Positions 14,212 to 37,873 of a DNA stretch of 43,492 nucleotides are shown here, piece by piece. A program made the position numbers and the translations under genes. This DNA is from a virus. Every line of letters begins with the position of its first letter. The first letter of the stretch is position 1. Where the stretch lies: positions 1-43,492 of IMG/VR virus record IMGVR_UViG_3300021171_000003; one strand, written 5' to 3'. Under the pieces are notes generated by a model, which was given only the letters and a program-made list of their open reading frames with translations, had not been told where the DNA came from and ran no database searches.

Positions 14212-14421
14212 TTAAGCAACCGGTCCTTTGCCGAAACCGTGAGCGGCCCCGGCGTGCTTCTTATTAATGTGGCCCGGCAAATGCTTCGTCGGGGTTGAAG
14301 CGAAATCGTGAAGCTGTCCGTGGGACATTTTCAATAGCCCCCGGTTGCGCTTGTATAGCTTGGACGGGTTATGCTCCGCTATAGCCATTGCGGCCTGTTC
14401 GGCTTTAGATACGCTGGGCAT
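14212..14421 (-). CDS. Small basic DUF3008-like phage protein
   Basis: The start ATG at 14421 overlaps the terminase stop as TAATG. The 69-residue product begins MPSVSKAEQAAMAIAEHNPS and continues LYKRNRGLLKMSHGQLHDFA, a pattern seen in small phage proteins of the DUF3008 type (S.K.QQ..M..A, then a K-rich middle and an LHDFA box). It ends HGFGKGPVA, the motif shared with the 13469-13900 product. It is basic and probably helical. The family has no established function. Upstream in-frame codons would lie inside the terminase gene and are not used. Confidence 0.6.
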   Translation of the reverse strand: MPSVSKAEQAAMAIAEHNPSKLYKRNRGLLKMSHGQLHDFASTPTKHLPGHINKKHAGAAHGFGKGPVA

Positions 14422-20210: not shown

Positions 20211-20845
20211 CGCCGGACTTATGCCAACGAATCACAGATTATCTGACATGCGGAGGGTTGTTTAACCCGGAATCTGCGCTGCACGAAAGAGTGCGAGATT
20301 TGCTGATTGAGTGCCGCACAGAACTTGAGGCGCGGGCCGTCGCAGAGAAGGCTCCTGCGCCACTTCGTAAGCAACTTGAAGACCTAGTAGCGAGAGCGGA
20401 ATGGCACCGTGAGCAGGACGCGGCGCTGGCCGGGGTCGCGCAGGAAGTCCCAAAAGGAGGTGACACTTTGCCGGAACGATTTGACCGGCTTCACAAGCAA
20501 GAGTGGGGGAGCACCGAGCCGCTGAATTCAACGAGTGCGGCCAGTCCACTGAACGCGGATGAGATTGTGGATGAATGCCTAGACCTATTCCCACAAGACC
20601 CTATTTTTGATGAGAACGTGTTGACCAGTATAATTCGTAAGAAACTTCTGGCGCTCAAGGGCCGCTTCACATTAGCTGCACCACAGGTGCGTGAGGAGAC
20701 GGTTCGACTGGAGGAAGCGCGTTGGTGGAGGGGCCGCACCGATGGGATACACATGGGCGATTGCCGATGCAATTTATGCGACCATATTCACGAACTGGAG
20801 CGGGCCGCGCTGGCCCCGCGCGAAACGGAGGAAGGGAAATCGTGA
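20207..20845 (+). CDS. Hypothetical protein with C-terminal Cys/His motif
   Basis: The start is a GTG overlapping the preceding stop. The 212-residue product is mostly helical and charged. Its C-terminal 45 residues contain EEARWWRGRTDGIHMGDCRC followed by NLCDHIHELERA, i.e. a His...Cys-x-Cys-x2-Cys-x-His cluster that could bind a metal. AAAAGGAG occurs at about residue 85 before the codons for LPERFD, a possible internal start. It is the last gene before the helicase, which begins within its stop codon (GTGA). No known family. Confidence 0.55.
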   Translation: MTPDLCQRITDYLTCGGLFNPESALHERVRDLLIECRTELEARAVAEKAPAPLRKQLEDLVARAEWHREQDAALAGVAQEVPKGGDTLPERFDRLHKQEWGSTEPLNSTSAASPLNADEIVDECLDLFPQDPIFDENVLTSIIRKKLLALKGRFTLAAPQVREETVRLEEARWWRGRTDGIHMGDCRCNLCDHIHELERAALAPRETEEGKS

Positions 20846-22494
20846 GCACCTGCCCCACCAATGTCGGCCTCCCTGCCCGCTTCAAGTATTGGCGTCCGGG
20901 CCAGCAGCTCGCCATCGACCGCGCCCTCAATAGCCCGGCAAGGTTCATGGCCATGTGCATGCCCACGGGCAGCGGCAAGAGCCTCGTGTACGTCGCCCTG
21001 TCCCGGGCATTTGGGCGTACGTGCATCCTTACCTCCACCAAGGGGCTACAGGACCAGCTCATCCGGGACTTCCGCGAGATCGGCATGACCGACATCCGGG
21101 GCATGAATAATTACGAGTGTCTCGCCGTGGGACAGGAGGGCGAATTCCCGTTCTTCAAGGACGATTCTCAGCCGGTCGCCTGCGACGAGGGGCCGTGCAC
21201 GGGAGGATTCCGATGCGAAATGAGGCAGGCGGGGTGCACGTATTTTGACGCCAAACGCACCGCCACCCGGTCGGAACTGGTGGTGACGAACTACTCGTAC
21301 TGGCTGAGGGTCATGAATACCGGCAAGGAGGACGCCGGGCTGGGGAAATTCGACCTGCTGGTGCTGGACGAGGCACACGGTGCACCGGACGAGCTGAGCG
21401 ACTACCTGAGCGTGGAGGTCGGGGCGGCAGAGCTGGAGCAACTCATCAGTGAGGGATGGCCGGGGGAGCATCCGGAATTCGATTGGTGGCGCTCTTGGGC
21501 CGAACGAATATCAAGCGTTGTAGGCGGCCAGATAGCGGAGGCGGAGGAAGATCGGCAGCCGACCCGGGCGGCATTGCGCCACCTCAAGGCCCTAAGGAGC
21601 CTGCGCGACCGCTTGGGACAGGTCAAGGACGCTAAGGGGGAGTGGGTTCAGGAGAGTTACCGGGATATGCGGGGCAGTCGCAAGCTTAAGTTTGATCCGG
21701 TCTACCCGAAGGAGTACAATGGAGCGCTATTTGCAGACGTACCTCACGTGCTTATGGTGTCTGCCACAGTTCGACCTAAGACTCTTGACCTGCTTGGACT
21801 CGGCCCCTCGGGAGCTGGTGGACAGCGCTTGCACGATTTTATGGAGTCAAATGTGGCCTTCCCGGTCGCTCGTCGGCCCGTTATTTATGTCCCTACAGTG
21901 AGAATGAAGCACGGCATGGACAACGGCGACATGATCTGGTGGGTGAACAGAATAGACCAGATCATCGACAAGCGCAAGGACCGGAAGGGCATCCTGCACA
22001 CGACCAGCTACAAGAGGGCGGAATTCTTCATGGCCCACACGAGGCACGGGGAGATATGCGCCCTGCCCCGTGGCCCCGCAGTACGGGGGGCCGTCGCCGC
22101 ATTTAAGGGAGAGGCTCCGGATGAATCGGCAGGGCATCCGGCGCAGCTATCTTATGTGCGACTGCTGGTATCCCCCAGCCTGACGACCGGCTACGACTTC
22201 CCGGGGGACTCCTGCCGGTACCAGATCGTGGGGAAGATTCCGTTTCCAGACACAAGGTCGAAGGTGCTCCAAGCCCGGGAGGCGCACGACAAGGACTACG
22301 GGGCGTACGTGGCGATGCAAACATTGGTGCAGACCTGCGGGCGGGGCATGAGGTCGGCGGACGACTGGTGCGAGACCATCATCGTGGACAGCAACTGGTC
22401 GTGGTTCCTGCCGAGGTACAAGCATTTTGCGCCGGACTGGTTTATTAAGGCGTGCAGCACCAGCAATCTGGTGCCGGACGCGCTTAATTTGTAG
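20842..22494 (+). CDS. XPD/DinG-like SF2 helicase
   Basis: The start is the GTG at 20842 with GGAGG and GGGAAA upstream, overlapping the previous stop. The 550-residue protein has Walker A PTGSGKS (residues 41-47), a DEAH box (LLVLDEAHGAP, 176-179), motif III-like VSATVRPK, and a C-terminal motif VI-like QTCGRGMRSADD with catalytic Arg. Between motifs Ia and II lie Cys92, 114, 119, 125 and 132, the place where XPD/DinG helicases carry a 4Fe-4S cluster. Such helicases unwind DNA 5'-3'. In phages this type sits with recombination genes, as here. A role in replication or DNA-end processing is likely. Confidence 0.85.
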   Translation: MSTCPTNVGLPARFKYWRPGQQLAIDRALNSPARFMAMCMPTGSGKSLVYVALSRAFGRTCILTSTKGLQDQLIRDFREIGMTDIRGMNNYECLAVGQEGEFPFFKDDSQPVACDEGPCTGGFRCEMRQAGCTYFDAKRTATRSELVVTNYSYWLRVMNTGKEDAGLGKFDLLVLDEAHGAPDELSDYLSVEVGAAELEQLISEGWPGEHPEFDWWRSWAERISSVVGGQIAEAEEDRQPTRAALRHLKALRSLRDRLGQVKDAKGEWVQESYRDMRGSRKLKFDPVYPKEYNGALFADVPHVLMVSATVRPKTLDLLGLGPSGAGGQRLHDFMESNVAFPVARRPVIYVPTVRMKHGMDNGDMIWWVNRIDQIIDKRKDRKGILHTTSYKRAEFFMAHTRHGEICALPRGPAVRGAVAAFKGEAPDESAGHPAQLSYVRLLVSPSLTTGYDFPGDSCRYQIVGKIPFPDTRSKVLQAREAHDKDYGAYVAMQTLVQTCGRGMRSADDWCETIIVDSNWSWFLPRYKHFAPDWFIKACSTSNLVPDALNL

Positions 22495-22496
22495 TA

Positions 22497-22526
22497 TTGA
22501 CAGGGTGTGTGGCAGTAGTGTACGAT
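22497..22526 (+). promoter_or_regulatory. Early/middle promoter P3
   Basis: TTGACA and TACGAT are separated by 18 bp; the spacer starts GGGTGTGTGG as in P4. It lies in the 55-base gap after the helicase and directly precedes the run of recombination, Z-base and polymerase genes, none of which has another promoter before P4. Confidence 0.75.
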
Positions 22527-22549
22527 CATCTCACAGGAGGGCACTAAAC

Positions 22550-23431
22550 ATGCCGATTCAAATGCAGAAGAAGGCGGGGCAGCAAGCAGGAGCGGGGGCA
22601 GGGAAGCAGTCGGGGGCACCGGCAGGGCAGCGGGGCGCAATGGCGGAAGGCTCACCGGTGTCGCTCAGGCCATCGGATCAGGTTTCCGAGGGCCTGTTGG
22701 ACGATTGCGACGTGACGTTCGAATCGTTCATCTTCACGCTGGAGGCACCGCCGAATTACAACGCGGGGGACGCGGTGCCGCTGTTCGTAAAAGCCTCCTT
22801 AGCGGTGGACGGGGGCGAAACGGTGGAGCAGTGGTGGTCAGCCGGGGACTCCTCGAAATTTCAACCATCCGAGGACGGAGATACGGCGGTAAGGGTCAAG
22901 GGTTCGGGGGGGCTGGGGCAGGGCACCAACGCTGCGGCGCTCTTCCGGTCGATCGTCGATGCGGGGTTCCCCGAGGACAAGATCACTGCCGGTTTATCCT
23001 GCTTCGTCGGAATGAATGCCCACATGCAGCAGGTAGCCATGAACAGGAAGGGGCTACCGGCGCAGGAGGGCAAGAGGCCGTCAACCACGCTGCTGGTGGC
23101 AAAGATCAACCGGCTACCGTGGGAGCAAGCAGGGAAAGTTGCCCCAAAAGGCAAGGCCGCTACGTCCACGAAGACAACCCCCGCGACCCGGACGGCCCCG
23201 GCGGCCTCAAACGGTGACGTCACCGATGACGCTGCGGCCATCATCGCCACCATCCTCGCCAAGGGGCCGTGCAAGTCGGCCTCCCTCCCGGCCAAGGCGT
23301 TCCCGCATCTGGCGGGGAAGGCTAACCGGGCGGACATCCTCAACCTGCTCAAGGACGCGGACTTCCTTGTCGCGGCATCCGAGGCGGGCCACTTCCAATT
23401 CGACGGCGAGACAGTCAGCGCCAACGAATAA
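22550..23431 (+). CDS. Unassigned replication/recombination-cluster protein, possible ssDNA-binding protein
   Basis: The ATG at 22550 has CAGGAGGG seven bases upstream and lies just after P3, so it should be highly expressed. The 293-residue product has a Gln/Gly/Ala-rich N-terminal 35 residues, a folded beta-rich domain (about 45-185; DVTFESFIFTLEAPPNYNAG, then FVKASLAVDGGETVEQWWSA), a Lys/Thr/Ala linker (200-230) and a C-terminal helical domain (230-290) resembling a winged-helix or similar small domain. High expression, a linker and position before the nuclease and RecA-like ATPase fit an ssDNA-binding partner. That is inference; no OB-fold signature is certain. Confidence 0.55.
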   Translation: MPIQMQKKAGQQAGAGAGKQSGAPAGQRGAMAEGSPVSLRPSDQVSEGLLDDCDVTFESFIFTLEAPPNYNAGDAVPLFVKASLAVDGGETVEQWWSAGDSSKFQPSEDGDTAVRVKGSGGLGQGTNAAALFRSIVDAGFPEDKITAGLSCFVGMNAHMQQVAMNRKGLPAQEGKRPSTTLLVAKINRLPWEQAGKVAPKGKAATSTKTTPATRTAPAASNGDVTDDAAAIIATILAKGPCKSASLPAKAFPHLAGKANRADILNLLKDADFLVAASEAGHFQFDGETVSANE

Positions 23432-23436: not shown

Positions 23437-24030
23437 ATGGACCTGATAGAGTTGCGGACGGACGAAACGGTCTTTAGGCCCAAGGGGCCGGGCCGTTCGT
23501 CCGGGGTCCACGTCAGCGAGATCATAAGGAGCATCGAAAATGAGGTCACCAAACCCGGTAAGCGACGACCCTACGACAGCCTCACCAGCGATGAAAAGAG
23601 GCGGATGGGGGCTTATGTTACCGGAGGTTTTGCATGGGAAGAAGTTATCCGGGAGGCTGTGGTTGCGATGCATCTCGCCAGTAGCGATAGATTTATTCCT
23701 CCCGGGGAGCTTGAACTCGACGGCATTCATGGTACTCCCGATTGGTTCGATACTGAGGATTGGTGCATCGAGGAGTTTAAAGCAACGTGGCGTAGTAGTA
23801 GGCGGCCCATCACCCAAGACTTCTGGCACTGGTGGGTGCAGATAAGGGCATACTGCCACATGCTGGGGGTAAGGACGGCGAGGCTCCGGGTGTTCTTCGT
23901 AAACGGGGACTACCGGAATAGCGGCCCTCAGATCAAGATGTGGCAGGCGACATTCACACCGGAGGAATTGATTATGAATTGGGCAATGTTGCACCAGCAC
24001 GCAGTGGAAAAAGGATGGCTGCATGGCTAA
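23437..24030 (+). CDS. PD-(D/E)XK nuclease, Cas4/RecB-like exonuclease
   Basis: The 197-residue protein carries the PD-(D/E)XK core: an early Glu (GGFAWEEVIRE, about 68), the motif HGTPDW with Asp102, and EEFKAT with Glu113-x-Lys115, followed by a Gln-containing helix (WWVQIRAYCHML). This is the layout of phage exonucleases of the RecB/Cas4 group that resect DNA ends. It is co-transcribed with a RecA-like ATPase overlapping its stop by eight bases, a usual recombination pair. No Fe-S cysteine set is evident, which argues against a true Cas4. Confidence 0.8.
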   Translation: MDLIELRTDETVFRPKGPGRSSGVHVSEIIRSIENEVTKPGKRRPYDSLTSDEKRRMGAYVTGGFAWEEVIREAVVAMHLASSDRFIPPGELELDGIHGTPDWFDTEDWCIEEFKATWRSSRRPITQDFWHWWVQIRAYCHMLGVRTARLRVFFVNGDYRNSGPQIKMWQATFTPEELIMNWAMLHQHAVEKGWLHG

Positions 24031-24778
24031 GAGTAGCGGGTTTGTACTGGCGGAGTCCCGGGTCAAGCCCCGACTCATCGCATCCATCGATGGCCTTGAG
24101 AAGTGCGGCAAGGACCATTTCTCATTCACAGCACCCGGCCCCATCGCCGTCATCTCCATCGATACCGGCCTTGAGGGCGTCATTCAGAAGTTCCAGAAGG
24201 ACAAGAAGATTTACGTGTCCGACCACCAGTTGCCCCTCACCGAGGGCATGACCATAGAGAAGGCAGCAGAACTGTCGCGCGTAGTGTGGAAGGGCATCCG
24301 GGCCGACTACGCGGATGCTCTGGCGACCCCGGACATAAGAACGATAGTGTGTGACACCGGGACGGAGATGTGGGAGTCGTGCCGCATGTCGTGGTTCGGC
24401 AAGCTGACCGAGGTGATGCCGCACCACTACGCCAAGCCCAACGGGGAGTGGAGGAATCTGGTGAGGATGGCGTTCGACGGGGACAAGCAGGTGCTGTTCC
24501 TCCACAAGCTTAAGGATGAGTACGTAGGCAAGAACCGCACCGGGGAGTTCAAGCGGTCGGGAATGAGCGATATGGGATTCCTAGTGCAGATGGCGGGAAG
24601 GTGTTGGAAGGATGCGGCGGTGCAGGCCGTGCCGGACAAGTTCCACTTCCTGATTACGGACTGCAGGCACAAGCCCGAACTGGAGGGGCTAGACTTCCCG
24701 GGGGAGGAGTGCAACTTTCCGACGGTAGCGAGCTGGGTGCTGTACGGAGACGATCAGCACGTGAAGGAGTTCTTATGA
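24023..24778 (+). CDS. RecA-like phage ATPase (Sak4-like), variant Walker A
   Basis: The 251-residue protein resembles the small P-loop ATPases of phage recombination modules (AAA_24/Sak4-like). SIDGLEKCGKDHF (residues 21-33) is at the Walker A place but has Asp after GK instead of Ser/Thr. Walker B is IRTIVCDTGTEMW (Asp111). The KDEYVGKNRTGEFKRSGMSD stretch and the segment FLHKLKDEY are typical of the family C-terminal core. Such proteins anneal or pair single strands. The ATG of the next gene overlaps its stop. The altered Walker A may reduce Mg-ATP use. Confidence 0.72.
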   Translation: MAKSSGFVLAESRVKPRLIASIDGLEKCGKDHFSFTAPGPIAVISIDTGLEGVIQKFQKDKKIYVSDHQLPLTEGMTIEKAAELSRVVWKGIRADYADALATPDIRTIVCDTGTEMWESCRMSWFGKLTEVMPHHYAKPNGEWRNLVRMAFDGDKQVLFLHKLKDEYVGKNRTGEFKRSGMSDMGFLVQMAGRCWKDAAVQAVPDKFHFLITDCRHKPELEGLDFPGEECNFPTVASWVLYGDDQHVKEFL

Positions 24779-25329
24779 ACCGGAAGCAGCTGTACTACCA
24801 CCACGATAAGCTGTGCGCCAACGCCAAGGCCCTGATGCAGGACAAGAACGCGGACTATGGCGAGAACGATGACCCATTCCGCAACTTCCGGGAATTCGGC
24901 CAGCTGGGCATTCTCGTCAGGCTGAGCGACAAGCTGGCCCGGTTGCGGACGTGGGTCGAACGGGGGGTGTACCAAGTAAAGAGCGAGAAGGTCGAGGATG
25001 TAGTACTGGACGTAATAAATTACGCCGTGCTGTTTAGCGGCTACGGGGAGGATGGGCATGCTGGCATTGTCGATATCGATGGCTGGGAAGATCGAGGCCG
25101 AGATAACGAAGTCCGTAAAGAACCACGGTCCTTTGCCGATGGACCTATGCCGAATCTCGGCCATTCTTTCGGCGGAGTGCGGAGAGGTAGCCGAAGCGGC
25201 GCTGGAATACACAAGGGAAAAGGCGGATTCGGCAAGGAGTGCCGCAAACCGGGCACATCTGGAAGAGGAGATAGCACAAGTCGCCGCAGTAGCCCTCCTG
25301 TGGCTCGCAAGATTGGAGGGGGGCGCTAA
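24775..25329 (+). CDS. DUF1599/NMAD1 protein (nucleotide modification associated)
   Basis: The ATG overlaps the previous stop (ATGA). Residues 1-92 match the DUF1599 pattern, also called nucleotide modification associated domain 1: KNADYGENDDPFRNFREFG, then a DKLARL helix and KVEDVVLDVINYAVLF. The fold is related to all-alpha NTP pyrophosphatases, and the E/D residues of the last helix fit metal binding. From residue 95 to the stop at 184 the frame is Gly/Arg/Ser-rich and overlaps the MazZ-like gene completely in another frame, so this tail may have arisen only because that frame lacks stops. Placement next to MazZ and PurZ points to nucleotide-pool work for modified DNA. Confidence 0.7.
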   Translation: MNRKQLYYHHDKLCANAKALMQDKNADYGENDDPFRNFREFGQLGILVRLSDKLARLRTWVERGVYQVKSEKVEDVVLDVINYAVLFSGYGEDGHAGIVDIDGWEDRGRDNEVRKEPRSFADGPMPNLGHSFGGVRRGSRSGAGIHKGKGGFGKECRKPGTSGRGDSTSRRSSPPVARKIGGGR

Positions 25330-25342
25330 TGGCGGTACCTAA
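25058..25342 (+). CDS. mazZ: MazZ-like nucleotide pyrophosphohydrolase (MazG fold)
   Basis: The start is taken at 25058 because GGGGAGG lies six bases upstream; the ATG at 25052 touches it. The 94-residue protein has the MazG-type core: helix SAECGEVAEAALEY with Glu40 and Glu43, then HLEEEIAQVAAVALLW with Glu69-71. The usual final Asp of the ExxD motif is Gln74, as in many phage MazG-like proteins. MazZ converts (d)GTP to (d)GMP, the substrate of PurZ, in 2-aminoadenine phages. The gene overlaps PurZ by 14 bases. The name rests on this neighbourhood as much as on sequence. Confidence 0.7.
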   Translation: MLALSISMAGKIEAEITKSVKNHGPLPMDLCRISAILSAECGEVAEAALEYTREKADSARSAANRAHLEEEIAQVAAVALLWLARLEGGANGGT

Positions 25343-26570
25343 GCCCATCGTCCTAATTCAGGGGGCGCAGTGGGGCAGCGAGGGCAAGGGTATGGTGGCG
25401 GCGGCCCTGGGCGCACGAAGGAAGGTAGACATCTGCGTCCGCACGGGAACCGTCAATGCGGGCCACACCGTATATAAGGACGGTGTGGCCTACAAGATGC
25501 AGCAGCTCCCGGTGGGCTGGGTGCACGGCGCGGATCTGGTGATCGGCCCCGGGGCCTACATTCACCCGGACATTTTCTACGGTGAATTGAAGATGGTGCG
25601 GAACGCCGGATACCGGGGCCGGGTGATGGTGGACTTCCGGTGCGGCCTGCACCTGCCCGAGCACACAGGCCGGTCCACTTTGTCGGGACGACATTATTCC
25701 ATGGGGGCTACCGGGAAGGGCTGCTCCGAGGCCATCATCGATAAAATTCGCAACCGGGGTAGCGGCGGGTTGGTGTTCAGGGACTACCCGCAGGAACCGC
25801 TACCCACAGGTGAGGGATGGGAGTTCAATGACACCGTAGAGGTGCTCAATGGAGCGTACGATGCGGGGAAGCAGATTCTCGTGGAAGGCACGCAGGGAAC
25901 TATGTTGGATTTACATATCGGCCCTTACCCTTTCACTACTCACAAACAGTGCACTGCTGCTGCTTGGGTCACTGAGGCCGGATTATCTCCGTCCTTGGAC
26001 TACGAAGTGGTGCTGGTGGCTAGAACTTATCCTATTAGGGTTGCTGGGAACAGCGGACCTATGGATGAGGAGATTACGTGGCCAGAGCTGGCGCGAGAGA
26101 TCAATGAGAAGTTGAAGGCGAAGGGCCTGCCCCCCCGAGTGGAGGAGTGGGCGCTAAGAAGGTTCGACACGGCATGGGCCGTAGCCGATCGGATGGACTA
26201 CGCCTCGGAGTATGAGAAGTTGAGCGAGCAGAATAGGCGGGCGTTCCAGCAGCTCGATGAGGCGACGGTGGCGGAGCTGGGTAAGCTATTCGAGTTCACC
26301 ACGGTGACCAAGAAGTTGAGGAGGGTGGCGAGGCTGGACATACCGCTGCTCAGGTACAGCGTGATGATAAACCGCCCGGATACTCTCTGCCTCACGTTCG
26401 TGAATTACGAATTCCCCGAACTGTGGGGGGCCAAAGAGTTCCCCCCATACCCCCGGGCCACGGACCCGGTATGGGATTACTTGTTGCATTTGGGCAATTC
26501 GTTGGGTCATGACGTGAACCTCGTAACGACCGGCCCCGAGGCCGCCCACTTCCATGATATTGGTCGATGA
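25329..26570 (+). CDS. purZ: PurZ-like succinoaminodeoxyadenylate synthase
   Basis: The 413-residue protein is an adenylosuccinate synthetase homologue with GAQWGSEGKGM (residues 12-22), NAGHT with catalytic-type His46, GATGKGCSEA for the phosphate loop, EGTQGTMLDL and VARTYPIRVAG. In PurA the loop reads GDEGKGK with catalytic Asp13; here Ser17 stands in that place, a change reported for phage PurZ. PurZ joins dGMP and aspartate, with ATP or dATP, to form the precursor of dZMP, which host PurB and kinases finish. A very strong GGAGGGGGG precedes the ATG. It lies between MazZ-like and polymerase genes, as expected for a Z-genome phage. An alternative is a plain PurA paralogue, which is less likely. 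Confidence 0.88.
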   Translation: MAVPKPIVLIQGAQWGSEGKGMVAAALGARRKVDICVRTGTVNAGHTVYKDGVAYKMQQLPVGWVHGADLVIGPGAYIHPDIFYGELKMVRNAGYRGRVMVDFRCGLHLPEHTGRSTLSGRHYSMGATGKGCSEAIIDKIRNRGSGGLVFRDYPQEPLPTGEGWEFNDTVEVLNGAYDAGKQILVEGTQGTMLDLHIGPYPFTTHKQCTAAAWVTEAGLSPSLDYEVVLVARTYPIRVAGNSGPMDEEITWPELAREINEKLKAKGLPPRVEEWALRRFDTAWAVADRMDYASEYEKLSEQNRRAFQQLDEATVAELGKLFEFTTVTKKLRRVARLDIPLLRYSVMINRPDTLCLTFVNYEFPELWGAKEFPPYPRATDPVWDYLLHLGNSLGHDVNLVTTGPEAAHFHDIGR

Positions 26571-27279
26571 TAGGGTGGGCAGTGCCGACATCGCCGGGTA
26601 CTTGAGAACTTGGCGCGTCCCTTGTGAGCTGACCCGCCTCGAATTCGGGGATGCGGCGTTCATAGGGAACGGTAAGAATGGGCCGGTCGCCATCGGAGTT
26701 GAGGTCAAGGCCGTCCGCGATGCGCTGGCCTGCATGACGGATGGCAGATTCGCGGGCCACCAATTGCCCGGATTAATGAGGACTTATGAGAGAATATGGC
26801 TTATCCTTGAGGGTTATGCGTACCCGCGATTTAGTGATGGGGTGTTACTTTCGGGTAAGCCCGGACACCGCGATGCTGCTGAACTCGGGGCCAGAAGGTT
26901 TATGTACCGTGACCTTGATAATTGGCTTACGACTATGGAGATTTGCGCCGGGGTACGGCTTCGCCGCACCGCTGATAGGATGGAGACAGCTCGGGTCGTG
27001 GCCGATATTCATAGTTGGTTCTCTAAGCCATTTGACGAACACAAGGCCCACCTCGCCTTCCACGAGGATGGACCCGACGTGGCACTTCTCACAAAGCCAA
27101 GTCTCATTCGACGAGTGGCTGCGCAGCTACCGGGCATCGGTTGGGGAAAGTCAATGGCAGTTGCGGCGAGATTTGGAACGGTGGAGTCGCTCCTAGCGGC
27201 AACGATGGAGGACTTGATGTCGATACCGGGGATAGGCGAAAAATTGGCTTGGGAGATCTGGCATGCTTTCAGAAGGTAG
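26554..27279 (+). CDS. ERCC4/XPF-type nuclease with tandem HhH
   Basis: The 241-residue protein has an ERCC4-type nuclease domain: VDDRVGS (residues 4-10), FGDAAFIG with Asp33, and IGVEVKAVRDAL with the Glu50-x-Lys52 pair that corresponds to the ERK motif of XPF/Mus81. The C-terminal 50 residues are two helix-hairpin-helix elements (LPGIGWGKS and IPGIGEKLA) for DNA binding. Such enzymes cut branched or flapped DNA. It overlaps PurZ by 17 bases and the next gene by 17, all in one unit. A role in resolving replication or recombination forks is likely. Confidence 0.8.
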   Translation: MILVDDRVGSADIAGYLRTWRVPCELTRLEFGDAAFIGNGKNGPVAIGVEVKAVRDALACMTDGRFAGHQLPGLMRTYERIWLILEGYAYPRFSDGVLLSGKPGHRDAAELGARRFMYRDLDNWLTTMEICAGVRLRRTADRMETARVVADIHSWFSKPFDEHKAHLAFHEDGPDVALLTKPSLIRRVAAQLPGIGWGKSMAVAARFGTVESLLAATMEDLMSIPGIGEKLAWEIWHAFRR

Positions 27280-28330
27280 GTACGTAGCAGGGGAAGGCCC
27301 GTGCCCCGCTGACGTCATGTTTATCGGGGAGGGGCCGGGGTTCGATGAGGACCGGATAGGCCGCCCCTTCGTGGGCAAGACCGGGCGGGAGCTTAACCGT
27401 TATATCGAGCGCACCCTCGGGATGAACCGATCCGAAGTGTACGTGACCAACCTTATCAAGCGCCGCATTCCTAATGACGGTGACCCCACCGAGGAGCTAA
27501 TTCGTGACTACACCTTCACCCTCAACCGCGAGATTCGAGCAGTTCATCCAAAATTCATTGGTGCTCTTGGTCGCTTTGCAGTTAGGTTCCTGCTTGGCGA
27601 CGTGGATATGGAAGTCGTACACGGCATACCTGTTTCTCATAATGGCGGATATACTGTTTGCCCCATCTTTCATCCTGCTGCTGGCCTGCATAGCACAGAG
27701 GTTCAGGCGAAAATAGCATACGACTTCGAGCAGATGAGCATGTGCATGAAGGGAAAGATCAGCCCCGGGATGCCGGTGGACGAGCACCCGGACCCGATAT
27801 ACGCCCTAATTGAGGAGAATCGGAAGGCGGGTCCTCCAACAGAGGATATGGTGGCGGTCGATACCGAGGGAAGCATCGAGAACCCGTGGGGTTGGTCGCT
27901 GTCTGGAGCACCCGGGACTGCTTGCGTCGTTGCTCCGCCCACGGAGTCCCACAAGTTTCTGAATCGGGTCATTCTACACAACAGCATGTACGACCTTGGC
28001 GTCCTCCGAGCCATGGGTATTGAGTTGGCCGATGACCAGTTTGAGGACACAATGGTCATGGCGTACCTGCTGTGCGTCGAGCCTCAGGGCCTCAAGCCCC
28101 TCGCCCGGCGTCACGCGGGGATGGAGATGCACAGTTACGAGGAAATTATTAGTGCCGCATCATACAAACACGCAATGGACTGGCTATTTGGAGCATATGA
28201 ATGGCTAAGCAGCCAATCGACAAGCGAATCGCCCGAATCATCACCGACTGCGGGAAAGAAGAAGGTTGCGATCCCCGCAAAAGGTGGGAAGCGGTCCGCG
28301 AAGACCTCCCGGGAGACGCGGCGGCGCTAG
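27263..28330 (+). CDS. UDG-fold domain fused to the first part of a PolA-type 3'-5' exonuclease
   Basis: Residues 1-150 are a uracil-DNA glycosylase superfamily domain of the family 4 type (GEGPGFDEDRIGRPFVGKTG, then VYVTNLIKRR and CPIFHPAAGLHS). The cysteines that hold the family 4 Fe-S cluster are mostly absent; only Cys14 remains near the N-terminus. Residues 195-315 are the start of a DnaQ-like proofreading domain with ExoI (VAVDTEG, Asp200 and Glu202) and ExoII (HNSMYDLGVL, Asp244). ExoIII is not here but in the next gene in the -1 frame. After residue 313 the frame overlaps the polymerase start and turns into a Ser/Lys/Arg-rich tail. It is probably half of a split polymerase. Confidence 0.78.
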   Translation: MLSEGRYVAGEGPCPADVMFIGEGPGFDEDRIGRPFVGKTGRELNRYIERTLGMNRSEVYVTNLIKRRIPNDGDPTEELIRDYTFTLNREIRAVHPKFIGALGRFAVRFLLGDVDMEVVHGIPVSHNGGYTVCPIFHPAAGLHSTEVQAKIAYDFEQMSMCMKGKISPGMPVDEHPDPIYALIEENRKAGPPTEDMVAVDTEGSIENPWGWSLSGAPGTACVVAPPTESHKFLNRVILHNSMYDLGVLRAMGIELADDQFEDTMVMAYLLCVEPQGLKPLARRHAGMEMHSYEEIISAASYKHAMDWLFGAYEWLSSQSTSESPESSPTAGKKKVAIPAKGGKRSAKTSRETRRR

Positions 28331-29733
28331 AGCGGGCGATAGGGCGGATGCCCGTAGCCACGCTTAACGACGTGCCTCCTGATGAGGCGGTGGCCTATGC
28401 GGCGAGGGATGCGGACGCCACCCTAAGAATCTACCCCAAGCTGTGGGACCGGATAGTGGCGATGGGGCTGGAGGGGTGCTACCGCATGGATATGGCGGTA
28501 ATCCCCGTGGTGGAACGGATGCAAGCGACGGGCATGGCGGTAGACGTGGGGCATTTCGAGAGGCTGGGCCATGAACTCCTTCACCATATGGACGTAATCC
28601 GGGGCGACATCTCGGTTATGACGGGGTTCGACATCAATCCGGGCAGCGGTGATCAGACCGCCATGTTGCTCGCCGCACTAAATCTGTTCTCCGATCGCCC
28701 GAAGATGACCATGGGAGGCTCCCGTGAATCAACCAACGATAAGGTCCTCGAATCCCTACGCTTGGCCCATCCAGTCATACCCCTTATACTTGATTGGCGT
28801 GAGATGGCTAAGCTACGGAATTCATTCTGTCTCACGCTACCCGGAGCAGTGGACGGTGATGGACGGATCAGGTGTAATCTCCGTATTACCCGCGTCAGCT
28901 CCGGGCGGCTTTCGGCTACTGGACCTAATCTTCTGGCCATACCTGTACGAACGCCCTTGGGTAGGCGAATCCGTGAAGGTTTTGTCGCACCTCCTGATTG
29001 CGTGCTTGGTGATTGGGACTTGGATCAAATCGAAATGCGGCAACTGGCGCACGAATCGGAAGACCCGACCCTCTGTGCGCTATTCAACCGGGGGGAGGAC
29101 ATACACCGGCAGACTGGCGCGTATGTTTTTGGAAAGAATCCTCAGGACGTTACCACCGAGGAGAGATACGCGGCCAAGCGGATCGGGTTCGGCGTCATAA
29201 CAGGAATCACCGAGGTCGGACTCGCGGAGCAGATGGCGCTGGCCGGAGCAACCGGCTGGCCGGAAGATCGTTGCAAGGAGGTCATCGATGAATGGTTCGG
29301 AGTGTATCCGGGCGCACGATCCTATTTGGAGGCGTGCCGCGCCGAGGCCCGGCGCAACGGCTACGTGCGTGACATGTGGGGTAGAATACGTTATCTGCCG
29401 GGCGTGCATTCAGAAATACCACGGATTCGTGAGGAAGCGCTCAGGCAGTCCCACTCGTTCAAAATTAGTGCTGGGGCACAGGGCACGTTGAAGAGGGCGA
29501 TGGCGGTGATATGGCGGGACATGAGGGCGCTGTGGCCGGAAATCAAGGCGTTCCGGCTAGAGCCACTACTGCAAGTGCACGACGAGCTGCTGTTTGAGCT
29601 GACGGATGACAAGTTCCTCAGGGAATATTGGGACGCGCTGGTGGTGGACAGGTTGTGCAACACAACTAAGTACCGGGTGCCGATAAAGGCGAAGGGCGGA
29701 TACGCGGCCAATTGGGGGGCGCTGGAGCACTGA
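28201..29733 (+). CDS. dpoZ: Family A DNA polymerase (DpoZ-like), second part of a split gene
   Basis: The ATG at 28201 directly follows an in-frame TGA and has GGAG seven bases upstream. The 510 residues begin with the rest of the exonuclease domain, including ExoIII (Tyr66-xxx-Asp70 in YAARDADAT), and then a polymerase: motif A DLDQIEMR (catalytic Asp273), motif B RYAAKRIGFGVITG (Arg322, Lys326, Phe330), motif C VHDE (His460-Glu462). Thr334 replaces the Tyr of the usual FGxxYG motif. In 2-aminoadenine phages a PolA-type enzyme called DpoZ prefers dZTP; the gene cluster supports that name. The preceding gene carries ExoI and ExoII, so both products are needed for proofreading. Confidence 0.85.
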   Translation: MAKQPIDKRIARIITDCGKEEGCDPRKRWEAVREDLPGDAAALERAIGRMPVATLNDVPPDEAVAYAARDADATLRIYPKLWDRIVAMGLEGCYRMDMAVIPVVERMQATGMAVDVGHFERLGHELLHHMDVIRGDISVMTGFDINPGSGDQTAMLLAALNLFSDRPKMTMGGSRESTNDKVLESLRLAHPVIPLILDWREMAKLRNSFCLTLPGAVDGDGRIRCNLRITRVSSGRLSATGPNLLAIPVRTPLGRRIREGFVAPPDCVLGDWDLDQIEMRQLAHESEDPTLCALFNRGEDIHRQTGAYVFGKNPQDVTTEERYAAKRIGFGVITGITEVGLAEQMALAGATGWPEDRCKEVIDEWFGVYPGARSYLEACRAEARRNGYVRDMWGRIRYLPGVHSEIPRIREEALRQSHSFKISAGAQGTLKRAMAVIWRDMRALWPEIKAFRLEPLLQVHDELLFELTDDKFLREYWDALVVDRLCNTTKYRVPIKAKGGYAANWGALEH

Positions 29734-29741
29734 TTTGGATA

Positions 29742-29771
29742 TTGACAGGGTGTGCGTGGGCATGGTACAAT
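29742..29771 (+). promoter_or_regulatory. Early/middle promoter P4
   Basis: TTGACA and TACAAT are separated by 18 bp; the spacer GGGTGTGCGTGGGCATGG shares the core of P1-P3. It lies just after the polymerase stop and precedes the AAGGAGCGACACC leader of the 29797 gene, so the last two genes including DatZ have their own transcription. Confidence 0.78.
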
Positions 29772-29796
29772 AAGGGTGCGGTTAAGGAGCGACACC

Positions 29797-30153
29797 ATGA
29801 CAAAGCAAGAGGCAGAGAAACTTGGCATTACCCCCCCGGTGCCTGACTTCCGGGAGGTCGGTCTAGACAAGAAGTTCGCCAACCGGGTCATCCGGTATGC
29901 GACCCTGGGCGAACAGATCAAGGTCCTTGAGGAGGAAAGGAAGGAGCTGTCGGGCGAGATCGGTGCGGACATTACTGCGGTCGGGGAGACCGTTGTAATG
30001 TGCGACAACCGGCGCGTGGCGGTCTGCGAAGGCAAGAACACGACCATCAACAAGGAGAAGCTGCTTGAGCTGGGGGTGCCGGTCAAGACCATTCTCGCGG
30101 CGACGGTCATCAAGCAGTACACCTACGTTCTGGTCGGAAAGGAGAAACTATGA
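29797..30153 (+). CDS. Hypothetical protein co-transcribed with datZ
   Basis: The ATG at 29797 follows P4 and the TAAGGAGCGACACC leader. The 118-residue product has a helical, coiled-coil-like segment (LGEQIKVLEEERKELSGEIG), a beta part (TVVMCDNRRVAVCEGKNTTI) and INKEKLLELGVPVKTILAAT, a pattern met in small proteins encoded beside phage polymerases. The function is not known. Its stop overlaps the ATG of the DatZ-like gene (ATGA), so the two are translated together. Confidence 0.65.
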   Translation: MTKQEAEKLGITPPVPDFREVGLDKKFANRVIRYATLGEQIKVLEEERKELSGEIGADITAVGETVVMCDNRRVAVCEGKNTTINKEKLLELGVPVKTILAATVIKQYTYVLVGKEKL

Positions 30154-30770
30154 GCGCGAACAGACTGGCGGACCTTCTCAGACTCACCGAAATTCGGCGG
30201 TGGGGCATCAACTGGATGTCAAGAACCCAGTCAGTCGCCGAGCACACGTTTCGGGTGATGGCGATAACCATGGACCTCTGCGAGTGGCTGGCTAAGGAGT
30301 ACCTCGGGGCGGAGCCGATCTACATGCTGGACTCCTTGCGCTGGGCGCTGGTCCACGACGGCCCGGAATGCTTCACGGGGGACATCCCGGCTACTCTCAA
30401 GGACCAGTTGAACAGAGCAGAGCTGCGCGACATCGAGGAAGGGGCGTGCCCGTGGTACTATAAGGAATCAAACCTGCCGGACGATCAAGCGGTGGCGATC
30501 GTGGACATCGCCGACAAAATTGAGGCCGCTTGGTGGGCACATTGCCAGTGCGAGGATTCGGGAACTTACTCGATGACGGTGGCCCGCCTCGACAAGGCCG
30601 TTGCCGAGGCGGTCGCCCGTTACGCTTGGAAGAAGCTACCTAGCTTTATTTCTGTTTTGGTGACCCAGCCACCTTACCGTCCGGGGCAGATGTCCCAGCA
30701 GCGACAATCTGCCGCCGCTCAACACCCGACCTCCGATCCTTCTGGCCTGACGCCAGAGGAACAAGCTTAA
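30150..30770 (+). CDS. datZ: DatZ-like HD-domain dATP triphosphohydrolase
   Basis: The 206-residue protein belongs to the YfbR/DatZ type of HD phosphohydrolases: SVAEHTFRV with His32, the HD pair in WALVHDGPE (His69-Asp70), and IVDIADKIEA with Asp119. DatZ removes triphosphate from dATP so that adenine is kept out of the phage DNA. Near the N-terminus RRWGINW has Trp and Ile two apart, as in the S-2L enzyme where such residues shape the adenine pocket (from memory). Residues after about 165 form a Gln/Pro/Ser-rich tail that overlaps the converging late gene. With PurZ and MazZ it completes the Z pathway; a YfbR-like 5'-nucleotidase is the alternative. Confidence 0.8.
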   Translation: MSANRLADLLRLTEIRRWGINWMSRTQSVAEHTFRVMAITMDLCEWLAKEYLGAEPIYMLDSLRWALVHDGPECFTGDIPATLKDQLNRAELRDIEEGACPWYYKESNLPDDQAVAIVDIADKIEAAWWAHCQCEDSGTYSMTVARLDKAVAEAVARYAWKKLPSFISVLVTQPPYRPGQMSQQRQSAAAQHPTSDPSGLTPEEQA

Positions 30771-32271: not shown

Positions 32272-32631
32272 TCACCCTCCTTGTGGCGGCTTGCTTAGGG
32301 CCGCGATCTGCCGGTCCTTGTCGGCCAGCGCATCCTTGCTCTGCTGCGCAATCGTATCCTGCAATTTCGTGTTGATGTCGTTGGTCTGCTTGGAAATGGT
32401 ATCGATCTTCTGCGTGACGTCCTGATTGTGCTGATCCACGGCCTGTTTCGCTTGGAGAGCGGCCTGAGCTGCCTGATCGGATGCCAGTTTGGCCGCATCC
32501 CCGCGAGCCTTGCCCTTGGAGGCGTTCCACTGCTGCAGTGCGGCGGCTAGGGCGATCAATAACGTGATCAATGCCGACCAGAAATTTTGCATCGTTTGCG
32601 GGTCAACCATTGCTAGCATCGCTAGGAACAT
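32272..32631 (-). CDS. Membrane-anchored coiled-coil protein, possible holin or inner spanin
   Basis: The ATG at 32631 has GGAGG six bases upstream, better than the internal Met codons at residues 5 and 8. The 119-residue product has one transmembrane helix (about 15-38; TMQNFWSALITLLIALAAAL), then a long helical coiled coil (ASDQAAQAALQAKQAVDQHN to QIAAL) and a short polar end. This topology fits an inner-membrane spanin or a class III-like holin. It lies directly after the lysozyme-like gene with which it overlaps, supporting a lysis role. Confidence 0.6.
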   Translation of the reverse strand: MFLAMLAMVDPQTMQNFWSALITLLIALAAALQQWNASKGKARGDAAKLASDQAAQAALQAKQAVDQHNQDVTQKIDTISKQTNDINTKLQDTIAQQSKDALADKDRQIAALSKPPQGG

Positions 32632-33034
32632 TCGGGGCCTCCGTGTTGATGTTCAAGTAATCCTGCAGCGTATCCTTGTCGGGATCTGCCATGCTCAATT
32701 CTTCCGTGACGATGTGTGCCCACTCGCCCGGGTTGTCCCCACCGGTATAGACTTGGGCGAACTGAGCGAAGGTCATACTAATCTTAACATAGTGGGATTG
32801 CCCTGTCAATACTACCCATGCCTCCCGGTAGGCATATTCCCAGCCGGTGGCGGGGTCCGGGAACACCGTCTTTCCCTTGACCACGCCCCAACCCTTGTCC
32901 CCGATTTCGAGATCTATCGGGTTATTGATTCTAGTCGGGAGGTGGTCCGGTGCCCCCCAGCCCTCCGCCTTCCCTATGGCGTGGGCGAGGTCAATTACCC
33001 TCCTATCGTGCTTGTCCATCATGGCCGCATCCAT
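32603..33034 (-). CDS. Lysozyme/transglycosylase-like protein, probable endolysin
   Basis: The start is the ATG at 33034 (GGAGG about twelve bases upstream; Met codons at residues 5 and 6 are closer alternatives). The 143-residue protein has AHAIGKAEGWGAPDHLPTRI and NNPIDLEIGDKG near the N-terminus, a pattern known in phage lytic transglycosylase-like proteins (sometimes called structural protein P5), where the Glu of AEGWG is the proposed catalytic acid. FAQVYTGGDNPGEWAHIVTE is the later substrate-cleft part. It is followed by a membrane coiled-coil protein and a lipoprotein, so it is the likely endolysin, though a virion-associated peptidoglycan enzyme is possible. Confidence 0.65.
   Translation of the reverse strand: MDAAMMDKHDRRVIDLAHAIGKAEGWGAPDHLPTRINNPIDLEIGDKGWGVVKGKTVFPDPATGWEYAYREAWVVLTGQSHYVKISMTFAQFAQVYTGGDNPGEWAHIVTEELSMADPDKDTLQDYLNINTEAPNVPSDASNG
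32781..32809 (-). promoter_or_regulatory. Candidate leftward promoter before the lysis-like genes
   Basis: On the minus strand ATTGACAGGG, with TTGACA at 32809-32804, and TAAGAT at 32786-32781 are 17 bp apart. It lies inside the lysozyme-like gene and would raise transcription of the membrane proteins after it. The first bases match the early promoters; the spacer is one base shorter. Confidence 0.4.
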
Positions 33035-33035
33035 G

Positions 33036-34304
33036 TTAGTTGCCCACCTCCACGTAGGAACCGAATAATTGCCCGATATTGGACACCGAACCGGCAGAGA
33101 ATGCAATGCCATAGGTCAGGTTATTGGAAATGGTAAGGTTAAGGGTGACCGTAGTGGGCTGGAACTCCTTCTCAATCATCAGGTAATCGCCTTGAGCGGT
33201 GAGCGCCACCGCCGATCCGTGGGTATTGGCCCAGCAGCTCAATTTCCCCGAAGTGCCGATCGCGGTGGTGGTGCATTCAGTGACCTGATACCAGTCGAGC
33301 GGCGCACCGGTGGCGGTGACGACCACCGCCCCGTTGTCCAGCGCGGTTGCGCCTATGGAGGGGGTAAGGCTGACGGTGGTAGGATTGGTGAGAACTTGCC
33401 ACGTTCCCCGGCTGATGATGTGCAAGCGCCGGTTGAGGACGTTAAGAATTCCTGCAGGCAGTACCACGGTCGGTGTCCCGAACGTCTGCAAACTGGTTGA
33501 TGATGCGTTTACGGAGCTGAGGGGGGTCCCGGGCTGTACCCCGGCCTCGCTGTCGATGACTTGGCAGCAAGAGGGATTCCAGCCAGCGGCGGTCGGTGAG
33601 GTAGAGAACAGAGAGTTGAAGTTGTTACCTGCGGGGGCGTCGGTGATGGTGACCCCATTGATGGCTGGAGTAAGGATGGTCGGACTAGTAAGATTGGCGC
33701 ATCCACCCGCGCTGGTGATGCAGACCCCGCCCGCGATGTCCGGGAACTGGTAAGAGCGGTTTGCCGTGTTGGTATGGGTCAAGATCCCTAGGAAGCTTGT
33801 GCCGGAATTCCACTGGAACGCGGTAAACGTCTGCGTCGCAGTCCAAGTCTGCGGGACGTTGATGAATGCAGGGTTCTGGAACGATAATTGGGAAGTGGTA
33901 ATGTTGACCGGGACCGCTTGCCCGATATTGAATGTGGTTCCCGTGATGACGTAATTAGCCTCATAGATGAGGGAGTTGTTCTGGTCGAACACGTCCGCGC
34001 GGTAGTAGGTGCCCCCCGGTTGGCATTGGTCATTTCTCTCCAGCTGGGCGCTGGCAGGGAGCGTGCCGTTGGTAATTTGGTACAGGACCGGCTGCGCGGA
34101 CACGGCAACGTTCAAGGTAGTGTCGGTGCACGGATTGGAAAGAGTGAATACAATAGACCCGTTGACCGGGGTGCCGTCCGGGCCATTGATGGTGCCGGTG
34201 ATGGTGGATAGGGAGGCTGCGACCTTGTGAACCGGCACAAGGAACGCCAGAAGCGCACCCAACAGAACTGCTAGCGATGCTTGGAGCCAAGTCTTATTTC
34301 TCAT
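33036..34304 (-). CDS. Secreted beta-rich protein, probable tail fibre or spike
   Basis: The 422-residue protein has a signal peptide or anchor at its start (ASLAVLLGALLAFLVPVHKV) and then TITGTINGPDGTPVNGSIVF, a carboxypeptidase-regulatory-like beta domain also seen in the spike at 5830-8967. The remaining sequence is beta-rich with repeats of Thr/Asn/Ser and SPTILTPAINGVTIT, typical of fibre shafts. The ATG overlaps the previous gene by eleven bases. A role in host binding is likely by resemblance; the signal peptide is unusual for a virion protein. Confidence 0.6.
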   Translation of the reverse strand: MRNKTWLQASLAVLLGALLAFLVPVHKVAASLSTITGTINGPDGTPVNGSIVFTLSNPCTDTTLNVAVSAQPVLYQITNGTLPASAQLERNDQCQPGGTYYRADVFDQNNSLIYEANYVITGTTFNIGQAVPVNITTSQLSFQNPAFINVPQTWTATQTFTAFQWNSGTSFLGILTHTNTANRSYQFPDIAGGVCITSAGGCANLTSPTILTPAINGVTITDAPAGNNFNSLFSTSPTAAGWNPSCCQVIDSEAGVQPGTPLSSVNASSTSLQTFGTPTVVLPAGILNVLNRRLHIISRGTWQVLTNPTTVSLTPSIGATALDNGAVVVTATGAPLDWYQVTECTTTAIGTSGKLSCWANTHGSAVALTAQGDYLMIEKEFQPTTVTLNLTISNNLTYGIAFSAGSVSNIGQLFGSYVEVGN

Positions 34305-35637
34305 TAGATTCCCTCACTGCGTCGAGTAGCGTCCTGCTCCTTGGCGGCGGGTATCCGGCCCCCTTGGGTTCGTACAGCACCGGCCTCCCCAGCTGTTGCA
34401 GCTGCGTCCCGGCCCCCGGCTTGCCCCTGCCCGCCAATTCCGGTAACTGCCCCTCCCGCTCGACCGACGCCATATAGTTCGGGTTCTCGCCAGGGAAAGG
34501 GGTCCGAGGCTCGGGGATAACGGTGGCGCGGTTTCCCTCTGCCGCCGCCGCCTCGGCATTGATGGATGCTGCCGATCCTCGGCCCGGATGCCACGGCCCC
34601 GGGGCAGTCTGCCCGGCCTCAAGCGCCGCCCGCCTTGGACCACTGGTAGTGTCCGGCATCTTAGTAGGAAGTCTGCTGGCCCGCCCCTCATTGATTGCCT
34701 GCTGTACTTCGTCGATCAGAGCGGCAGGTTTGGGCATTCTGGTAGATACTCTGTTCGCTCTGCCCTCCTTAACTGCTCTATCTAGGTCACTGACCGGCGA
34801 TTCCGGCTTAGGCCCCGTACCCGGCTTCCAAGGGCCGGGGGCATTCCTGCCCGCCTCAAGTGCCTCCTTCTTAGCCTTGTCGATTAGTCGACCCTGTTCC
34901 GCTTCATACAGTTCCGTCTTGGGGCCGACATATGGGGTAACTGGCTCCGTCCTTCTCGGGACCTTTGCCTCCAGTTCCCTCGTCGCCATCGTAGTCGGAT
35001 TAACCGTTACGTCTTCCGCCCGAGTCGGCCCCCGGGTGATGCGCTGCAGTAGGCCCCCCTCCCTCGTCACTCCTTCTGATGGAGCGCCGCCACGGGCTAT
35101 CCCCCTTCCCGCCGCTAGAGCCGCTGCTGCATCTACCGCTCCCCCACCCCAATTTCGCCGCCCAAATTCCTCCCCGGCTTTGGCCGCTGCCGGACCGATG
35201 ATCGGGATGTGGGCCGCCACTTGATGCCCTAAGGATTCCCACCCCTGAGTTTTCCCGGCCTTCTCGTATTCGGCACTCATCGGGCCGGTCACCATGTCGA
35301 GAAGTGATCCCTCAGCCGGGGGCCATTTGCCGCCAGTCACGGGCACCCGAGGGTCAGCTATCTTGACTATTCCTTCGCCCGCTCCACGGGCCAAACTCTT
35401 AACGGCATCCGCCGCGTTCCTGACCTGCCCGAGGAGTCCAGTCCTCGGGGATTCCTCGAACGTCTTACCCTGATTGGCCAGCCGCACTCGCGCTTGGTGG
35501 GCCGCTTCGGCTCCGCCCTCGGGCACGAATCCGGGCGGCGGTGGAGGAGTGCCCCCGCCTTGCGCCCCTGTCTGCTCCGGGACAAACCCCGGTGGCGGTG
35601 GCGGCGTCTTTACTGCGTCTTCGGTGCCGGGACCCAT
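34294..35637 (-). CDS. Probable ejection (internal virion) protein
   Basis: The 447-residue product opens with two copies of TPPPPPGFVPE within the first 40 residues, then a region with hydrophobic Ala/Gly helices (KAGEEFGRRNWGGGAVDAAA) and a long Pro/Arg/Glu-rich, probably disordered C-terminal half with repeats such as AALEAGQTAPGPWHPG and EALEAGRNAPGPWKPG. Such long, Ala/Gly-rich, partly disordered proteins encoded after the tail nozzle are typical of podovirus ejection proteins that leave the head with the DNA. No lytic domain is visible. Assignment is by context. Confidence 0.5.
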   Translation of the reverse strand: MGPGTEDAVKTPPPPPGFVPEQTGAQGGGTPPPPPGFVPEGGAEAAHQARVRLANQGKTFEESPRTGLLGQVRNAADAVKSLARGAGEGIVKIADPRVPVTGGKWPPAEGSLLDMVTGPMSAEYEKAGKTQGWESLGHQVAAHIPIIGPAAAKAGEEFGRRNWGGGAVDAAAALAAGRGIARGGAPSEGVTREGGLLQRITRGPTRAEDVTVNPTTMATRELEAKVPRRTEPVTPYVGPKTELYEAEQGRLIDKAKKEALEAGRNAPGPWKPGTGPKPESPVSDLDRAVKEGRANRVSTRMPKPAALIDEVQQAINEGRASRLPTKMPDTTSGPRRAALEAGQTAPGPWHPGRGSAASINAEAAAAEGNRATVIPEPRTPFPGENPNYMASVEREGQLPELAGRGKPGAGTQLQQLGRPVLYEPKGAGYPPPRSRTLLDAVRESNEK

Positions 35638-35895
35638 TTACCTGTACCCTCTACGGTGCGTGCGTTCCCTGTGGCAATTCGCACAAACGACGTCGCATTT
35701 GTCAATCTCAGCCAGAAGTTTCGCGTGCGTTTTATGCCCGCATGTTCCACCTATACCAAATAGCTTATCACCACGCACATGATCGAAGTCCATCACATAA
35801 GACGGATAGGACTTACCGCAATCCACGCACGGTTTCTCCTTGGCGGCCTGAATTATAACTTTGTTACGTGCGTATGCGAACTTTCCGCCTTTCAT
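35638..35895 (-). CDS. HNH endonuclease
   Basis: The 85-residue protein has a zinc-bound HNH core: CVDC, then DFDHVRG with the catalytic His, and CDVVCANCHRERTHRRGY with the second Cys pair and final His. This layout is that of small free-standing phage HNH enzymes. It sits between two ejection-type genes, a common place for intron-less homing endonucleases; there is only a weak ribosome binding site. A head-morphogenesis or packaging HNH is less likely because it is far from terminase. Confidence 0.8.
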   Translation of the reverse strand: MKGGKFAYARNKVIIQAAKEKPCVDCGKSYPSYVMDFDHVRGDKLFGIGGTCGHKTHAKLLAEIDKCDVVCANCHRERTHRRGYR

Positions 35896-35897
35896 TT

Positions 35898-37334: not shown

Positions 37335-37873
37335 AGGTTCAATCCCTTGATGATACCGCCCGTCCCGCCTATAACTTGCCCGGGGATGCCCAGCAGGGCG
37401 TTTGTGAATTGGCTCTGGGCATTCTGGTAGGCATTCTCAAGGGGGACCGCGCCACCGGTGAAGTATTGTGCCCCAAGAGAACCCTCAGTCGCGCCGATGC
37501 CTGCCGTGTCGCCCGCCGCCGTGAGGGTCGGAGCTGTCGCCGCCACCGCCGCCTCTCCGGGCAGATCGCCCAGCGCTGTCGCCTCGGACCCGCGCAACTC
37601 GTTCTCCGCACCTTGCTCCGCTGGCTGGGTGTAATTGATCCCCGCCGCGTTCGCCCGGGCGCGCTCACTAGCAGTAGCAGCGTTATAGGCATTCGACGTG
37701 GCCTCGGTGCCCGACGTCAGCAGGGACTTATAGAACGGCGAGTCCTGAACCGGTCCCTCAAACTGATTGAGGGTGCCCTGCGCCTTATCCTCACTGGCCA
37801 CGGACCTGCCTTGATCGGTCGCGCTGGTTGCCGTTGCCGTCTTCTCAATCGGGCTTCGCTTGGGTCCAGACAT
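37331..37873 (-). CDS. Ala/Gly-rich helical protein, possible ejection or virion protein
   Basis: The ATG has AAGGAGG eight bases upstream. The 180-residue product is Ala/Thr/Gly-rich and helical (FYKSLLTSGTEATSNAYNAA, then EAAVAATAPTLTAAGDTAGI). The segment NAYQNAQSQFTNALLGIPGQ near the end is similar in style to podovirus ejection proteins. It is the first of three such genes after the tail genes, so it may be the smallest of a three-protein ejection set as in P22 (gp7, gp20, gp16). No sequence match is claimed. Confidence 0.5.
   Translation of the reverse strand: MSGPKRSPIEKTATATSATDQGRSVASEDKAQGTLNQFEGPVQDSPFYKSLLTSGTEATSNAYNAATASERARANAAGINYTQPAEQGAENELRGSEATALGDLPGEAAVAATAPTLTAAGDTAGIGATEGSLGAQYFTGGAVPLENAYQNAQSQFTNALLGIPGQVIGGTGGIIKGLNL

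Follow-up and report, generated by a model that had tools for sequence, protein, structure and literature searches.

A third PurZ lineage with a predicted base Z DNA pathway in an uncultured phage

Does the replication unit described here equip its phage to build DNA with 2-aminoadenine (base Z) in place of adenine and, if so, to which Z lineage does it belong? The window, i.e., the whole stretch of DNA that was analysed, is an IMG/VR virus record of 43,492 bases from an uncultured phage. A single rightward unit on its + strand (24775-30770) carries, as predicted from an initial reading of the sequence, NMAD1, MazG-like, PurZ-like, ERCC4, family A polymerase and DatZ-like genes, all in their places, except that the polymerase consists of two overlapping ORFs instead of a single gene. 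The same gene order is found again in independent contigs at PurZ identities of 42-60%, so that the gene set is far beyond chance. The unit likely encodes an entire Z-DNA pathway that belongs to a third lineage, with a probability of about 0.8.

The PurZ-like gene (25329..26570, +; PF00709 E=8e-49; phrog_1211 E=1e-66) codes for a putative succino-aminodeoxyadenylate synthase, and its position among related enzymes is well defined. When cellular PurA is included in the tree (13 rows taken from genome contigs, together with the proteins of E. coli and P. horikoshii), the Ser-type enzymes all group together (100/100), beside an archaeal PurA pair. The window protein falls inside this Ser-type clade, within a group of 14 sequences (clade III; 100/100) that is separate from both the PurZ clade (phiVC8, S-2L, SH-Ab; 100/99) and the PurZ0 clade (Wayne, Sapo, Hiyaa; 100/98). 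The PurZ scan returned four related contigs at 57-60% identity and alignment-based scans gave more; the members of clade III found here are uncultured virus contigs only, and a first scan of genome contigs with the clade-III PurZ alignment as query found no cellular relative. A 2026 survey recognises two phage PurZ clades only, PurZ and PurZ0 (PMC12884076), and the suggestion that these Z-genome phages may be a new branch holds as far as sequence goes, where PurZ forms a branch of its own.

The residues whose roles have been described for S-2L and phiVC8 (PMC8342488) follow the same division. Specifically, the position of the PurA catalytic Asp13 is occupied by Ser (Ser17 in the window) in 13/13 clade-III rows and by Asp in 15/15 PurA; Thr324 (S-2L T273) is Thr in all 13 rows and Gly in 15/15 PurA; Phe357 is likewise Phe in 13/13, where PurA usually has Lys; and Asn359 (phiVC8 N297) is found in 12/13 rows, at a position where PurA (15/15) and PurZ0 (13/13) have Asp, which indicates an adenine nucleotide as the energy donor. 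Judged from sequence, these residues predict dGMP as the substrate of the enzyme and ATP or dATP as its donor. A phage PurA that boosts the ordinary adenine supply amid general dNTP-recycling hydrolases would agree with the scores, given that the nearest solved structures are archaeal PurA (P. horikoshii, 172 bits, versus 104 bits for phiVC8 PurZ) and that the protein falls under the curated NCBIfam cut-off of PurZ, as it does under that of PurA. However, the Ser in place of the catalytic Asp, the PurZ-specific Thr324, Phe357 and Asn359, and a grouping with PurZ and PurZ0 that leaves archaeal and bacterial PurA outside render this explanation barely credible, and the prediction of a PurZ and not a PurA is well supported.

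Like the PurZ clade (phiVC8, S-2L, SH-Ab 15497), the window has Ser at PurA Asp13, the equivalents of T273 and N297/Q308, MazG-like and HD genes near PurZ, and a family A polymerase (not in S-2L). It differs in its PurZ, which is only about 26-30% identical (tblastn) and contains an insertion of ~60 residues (about residues 252-315), in its MazG-like protein, which is of another type, in the lineage of its polymerase, and in that the polymerase genes stand between PurZ and DatZ. The PurZ0 clade (Wayne, Ghobes-type, Hiyaa; DutZ/DmtZ) shares the Ser-type PurZ with clade III, but has Asp at the nucleotide-donor position where clade III has Asn; its DmtZ/DutZ are not seen in the cassette of the window, and its PurB-like lyase and dUTPase genes are also found beside PurZ in two basal clade-III contigs (L110 and L111).

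In the closest relatives, as far as the contigs reach, the order of genes is NMAD1, MazG-like, PurZ, ERCC4, UDG-exonuclease, polymerase, small gene and DatZ. Conversely, many relatives of the polymerase have the helicase, SSB-like, Cas4-like, AAA, ERCC4 and polymerase genes without PurZ and DatZ, and when ten PurZ-less records of 40-66 kb (those of L077, L038, L041, L044, L081, L025, L030, L036, L027 and L088) were searched over their whole length, they gave no match to PF00709 or to the YfbR-like HD family. It follows that the Z cassette can be separated from the rest, since these relatives carry the same operon without PurZ and DatZ. NMAD1, MazZ and PurZ precede ERCC4, and DatZ follows the polymerase. 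The backbone that remains, kept in relatives with and without PurZ, comprises a DinG/Rad3-like helicase (20722-22494, +), an SSB-like gene (22427-23431, +) and a Cas4-like gene (23437-24030, +), the last two so called by label, with no family test. An AAA_24-type ATPase (24023..24778, +; PF13479 E=1.5e-4, below the cut-off) belongs to the backbone and borders the cassette on its left; in the PurZ-less L025, only 178 bases lie between the AAA match and that of ERCC4. The ERCC4 nuclease with its helix-hairpin-helix (26554..27279, +; PF02732 E=6e-9) does lie in the unit, as originally predicted, but it belongs to the backbone and not to the Z cassette, being present in the PurZ-less L025, L030 and L038. 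Likewise, a small conserved backbone gene of unassigned function (29752..30153, +) is kept in the PurZ-less L025, L036, L038 and L041.

The surroundings of PurZ vary within clade III itself. DUF5664 (PF18909) occurs around the clade-III PurZ of L046; in L110 (8187-11281) a basal clade-III PurZ lies beside a PurB-like lyase and a fused DUF1599-dUTPase, and in L111 (5794-9736) a second basal PurZ is accompanied by a PurB-like lyase and by ORFs that, judged by eye, resemble DUF1599 and dUTPase. No DatZ was found at these two loci. DUF5664, dUTPase and the PurB-like lyase are known parts of the Z pathway (PMC12884076), and their replacement of each other around clade-III PurZ supports the predicted Z function of the clade. 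A record of 42.8 kb (L005, G004) has portal, terminase and many other genes in common with the window, which places the two in one virus group. The loci L005 and L152 are the start and the end of the same contig, IMGVR_UViG_3300021420_000069 (42,838 bases), both ends of which lie inside the PurZ gene; this contig probably represents a complete genome in circularly permuted form.

The candidate for the MazZ role is a MazG-like gene (25052..25342, +) whose start is better placed at 25058, because the Shine-Dalgarno sequence GGGGAGG abuts 25052. Its product has no Pfam match and its PHROG matches are weak (phrog_4856, NTP pyrophosphohydrolase, 5.6e-5), while the structural model (pLDDT 87) is helical and finds MazG-family dCTPases as its best PDB matches, with a probability of 0.95 but E=0.33. 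The ExxE motif is kept and the second motif is ExxQ, not ExxD, in most relatives; the window protein has E42, E45 and E73, followed by ExxQ. The set of four acidic metal ligands (E35, E38, E50 and D53 in S-2L MazZ) is thus incomplete, and the replacement of the second-motif Asp by Gln makes the activity less certain. By its sequence, this is a divergent MazG-like protein to which the descriptions of MazZ-1 and MazZ-2 (PMC8342488) do not apply.

Immediately upstream, the NMAD1/DUF1599 gene (24775..25329, +; PF07659 E=8e-4, below the Pfam cut-off; phrog_1485 E=2e-16) has its NMAD1 domain in the first ~96 residues, and the remainder overlaps the MazG-like gene in another frame. Within 24775-25342 of the window, the two genes share up to 278 bases in different frames, and an upstream ORF likewise overlaps the MazG-like gene in L002, L003, L024, L032 and L033. 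NMAD1 had been regarded as an addition to the Z genes, a description that does not suit a family whose gene or domain already adjoins PurZ in the basal L110, with a DUF1599-like ORF in L111. This adjacency, together with the naming of NMAD1/DUF1599 for nucleotide-modification contexts, would also be expected of a cassette for another purine modification, e.g., a further 2-aminoadenine derivative with NMAD1 as the tailoring enzyme. In L110, however, DUF1599 is fused to a dUTPase, and the low-confidence, mainly helical model of NMAD1 (pLDDT 70), whose weak matches include MazG-type pyrophosphatases and are in no case significant, would rather fit the trimming of the nucleotide pool, so that a different modification is very improbable.

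At the other end of the cassette lies the gene of an HD phosphohydrolase (30150..30770, +; PF12917 E=1e-13), a candidate dATP triphosphohydrolase for the DatZ role. Its R17-W18-x-I20 corresponds to R19-W20-x-I22 of S-2L DatZ, which uses Arg, Trp and Ile for phosphate, sugar and base selection (PMC8065100), and a Lys is aligned at the equivalent of K81; E. coli YfbR likewise has the Arg, Trp and Lys. The phrog_7076 label ("dATP triphosphohydrolase") was rejected as proof of a DatZ, as E. coli YfbR matches it at 109 bits and the window protein at 93 bits. The tree of HD proteins is weakly resolved, with a clade-III DatZ group at 93/91 and YfbR left unplaced, and sequence cannot separate the window protein from YfbR-type dNMP phosphatases. 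The candidate DatZ role comes from synteny and from co-occurrence with clade-III PurZ: the gene is present in nine clade-III contigs with this polymerase and in 0/10 of the PurZ-less records.

The polymerase is made of chain A (27263..28330, +; PF03167 E=6e-20, phrog_17), with a family-4 UDG-like domain and exonuclease motifs I and II, and of chain B (28201..29733, +; PF00476 E=3e-80), with exonuclease motif III and the family A polymerase. Its original assignment as a DpoZ fails, since the tree places it outside DpoZ-1 and DpoZ-2 and the NCBIfam DpoZ models score it at 107 and 50 bits, under their cut-offs of 500 and 350. In this tree of 90 rows, it belongs to a clade of 11 (support 98), 10 of which are PurZ carriers, nested in a large set of UDG-exonuclease-polymerases, and DpoZ-1 and DpoZ-2 are located elsewhere. 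The closest PurZ-less relatives have the same replication operon without the Z cassette, and UDG-exonuclease-polymerases of this type (phrog_17; PurZ-less L025, L030, L038) show the same domain order as the window.

Both DpoZ clades share only one characteristic motif change, in which the steric-gate Tyr of helix O is replaced by Phe (PMC8599892); the residue aligns with Tyr766 of E. coli Pol I and is Phe in 9/11 reference DpoZ rows. Like DpoZ-1 and DpoZ-2, the window enzyme is a family A polymerase that adjoins PurZ genes and has a substitution at this position, but the residue is Thr instead of Phe, the UDG domain is fused or adjacent in the window and its relatives, and the window enzyme is split in two chains. 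Thr is found in 10/10 clade-III polymerases, none of which has Phe, and in 0/68 relatives; some PurZ-less relatives vary at the position (Asn, Met, Phe) and most of the wider group keep Tyr. Since the carriers come close to forming a single clade, the Thr amounts to roughly one event, and there are only 3 independent supported contrasts for a change at Tyr766. As a proven marker of PurZ carriers, the change was rejected, its association (Fisher p=8e-5) not being independent of phylogeny. On two short contigs (L095, L100), a related polymerase that keeps Tyr at 766 is found with a Ser-type PurZ near PurZ0; these are PurZ carriers without the gate change.

These observations bear on how completely adenine would be replaced. 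A phage that makes dZTP but replaces adenine only in part, with a non-discriminating polymerase and incomplete removal of dATP, would be consistent with a polymerase outside the DpoZ-1 and DpoZ-2 clades and with the precedent of S-2L, whose non-selective PrimPol depends on DatZ (PMC8065100), here a candidate only. The co-occurrence of PurZ with the DatZ-like gene, as well as the clade-wide Thr at a position that is altered in both known DpoZ clades, argue against partial replacement, which is unlikely, though less so than the other alternatives. Full replacement is the preferred reading, and the polymerase could tentatively represent a third independent recruitment, in which a UDG-exonuclease-polymerase came to tolerate or to select Z, with a Thr steric gate and, in the window, two separately translated chains rebuilding one proofreading exonuclease, a possibility that is still somewhat doubtful.

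The split of the polymerase lies within the exonuclease domain, where the two genes overlap, and this two-ORF form occurs at seven loci, with chain B always in the -1 frame; in most relatives, UDG-exonuclease and polymerase are fused in one ORF. Programmed -1 frameshifting was considered and rejected: a GGGAAAG heptamer is present in the right frame in the window, but a similar one is found in the overlap of only 1/6 other split loci. Conversely, an NTG start of chain B is conserved at the same position in 7/7 split loci, with a Shine-Dalgarno pairing (mean -7.4 versus a background of -3.8 kcal/mol, sampling P ~0.0008; the loci are related to one another) that is better than background, and for these reasons independent translation is preferred. 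As far as sequence can tell, the likeliest arrangement is that the two chains are translated separately and have one exonuclease domain between them. The split was also rejected as a mark of Z phages, given that the PurZ-less L038 and L040/L041 are split and the PurZ-positive L033, L034, L042, L046, L106 and L108 are not; the split form follows lineage and not the Z trait.

A further group of Ser-type PurZ lies near Bacillus phage vB_BpsS-140 and the PurZ clade (L047, L049, L054-L056, L060, L061, L071). It has related UDG-exonuclease-polymerases with Asn at Tyr766, and PurZ occurs also in L284-L288; six records of the group (L047, L049, L055, L056, L060, L071) contain no YfbR-like HD gene. This group is possibly another Z lineage.

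The recognisable virion genes of the window are portal and terminase only, and neither points to a particular morphotype such as the podovirus type proposed at first. A podovirus with Z DNA would not be novel, because Z phages are already known from Siphoviridae and Podoviridae, including the podoviruses phiVC8 and ZP6 (PMC8342488, PMC8599892, PMC8515928). On the virion side of the window (1020-16834 and 32603-43124, - strand), most proteins have no significant PHROG or Pfam match, among them those of 725, 947 and 1124 aa, and the virion of this virus group is essentially undescribed.

In the proposed pathway, the MazG-like protein, perhaps with NMAD1, would convert dGTP to dGMP, from which PurZ would form dSMP with aspartate and with ATP or dATP. 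Host PurB and kinases would complete dZTP, no gene for either being seen in the unit, the HD enzyme would destroy dATP, and the copying of the genome, with Z substituted for A, would fall to the two-chain family A polymerase of the phage itself, so that base Z is predicted to replace every adenine in the phage DNA. The sequence itself shows the clade and residues of PurZ, the architecture of cassette and backbone, the co-occurrence of PurZ with the HD gene and the lineage of the polymerase; we infer every enzyme activity in this scheme, as well as the Z selectivity of the polymerase and the full replacement of adenine. Because a third PurZ branch is combined with a polymerase of different stock from the known DpoZ, the Z trait was probably assembled independently once more.

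The 2026 survey (PMC12884076) distinguishes PurZ and DpoZ clades in phages, two of each. To the PurZ clades these results add a third, represented by several uncultured virus contigs, whose polymerase stock and predicted pool-trimming enzymes are its own, and they extend the case for repeated assembly of Z-DNA around one synthase. Moreover, operon and polymerase occur in much the same form whether or not the cassette is present, which offers a natural comparison for what makes a polymerase accept Z.
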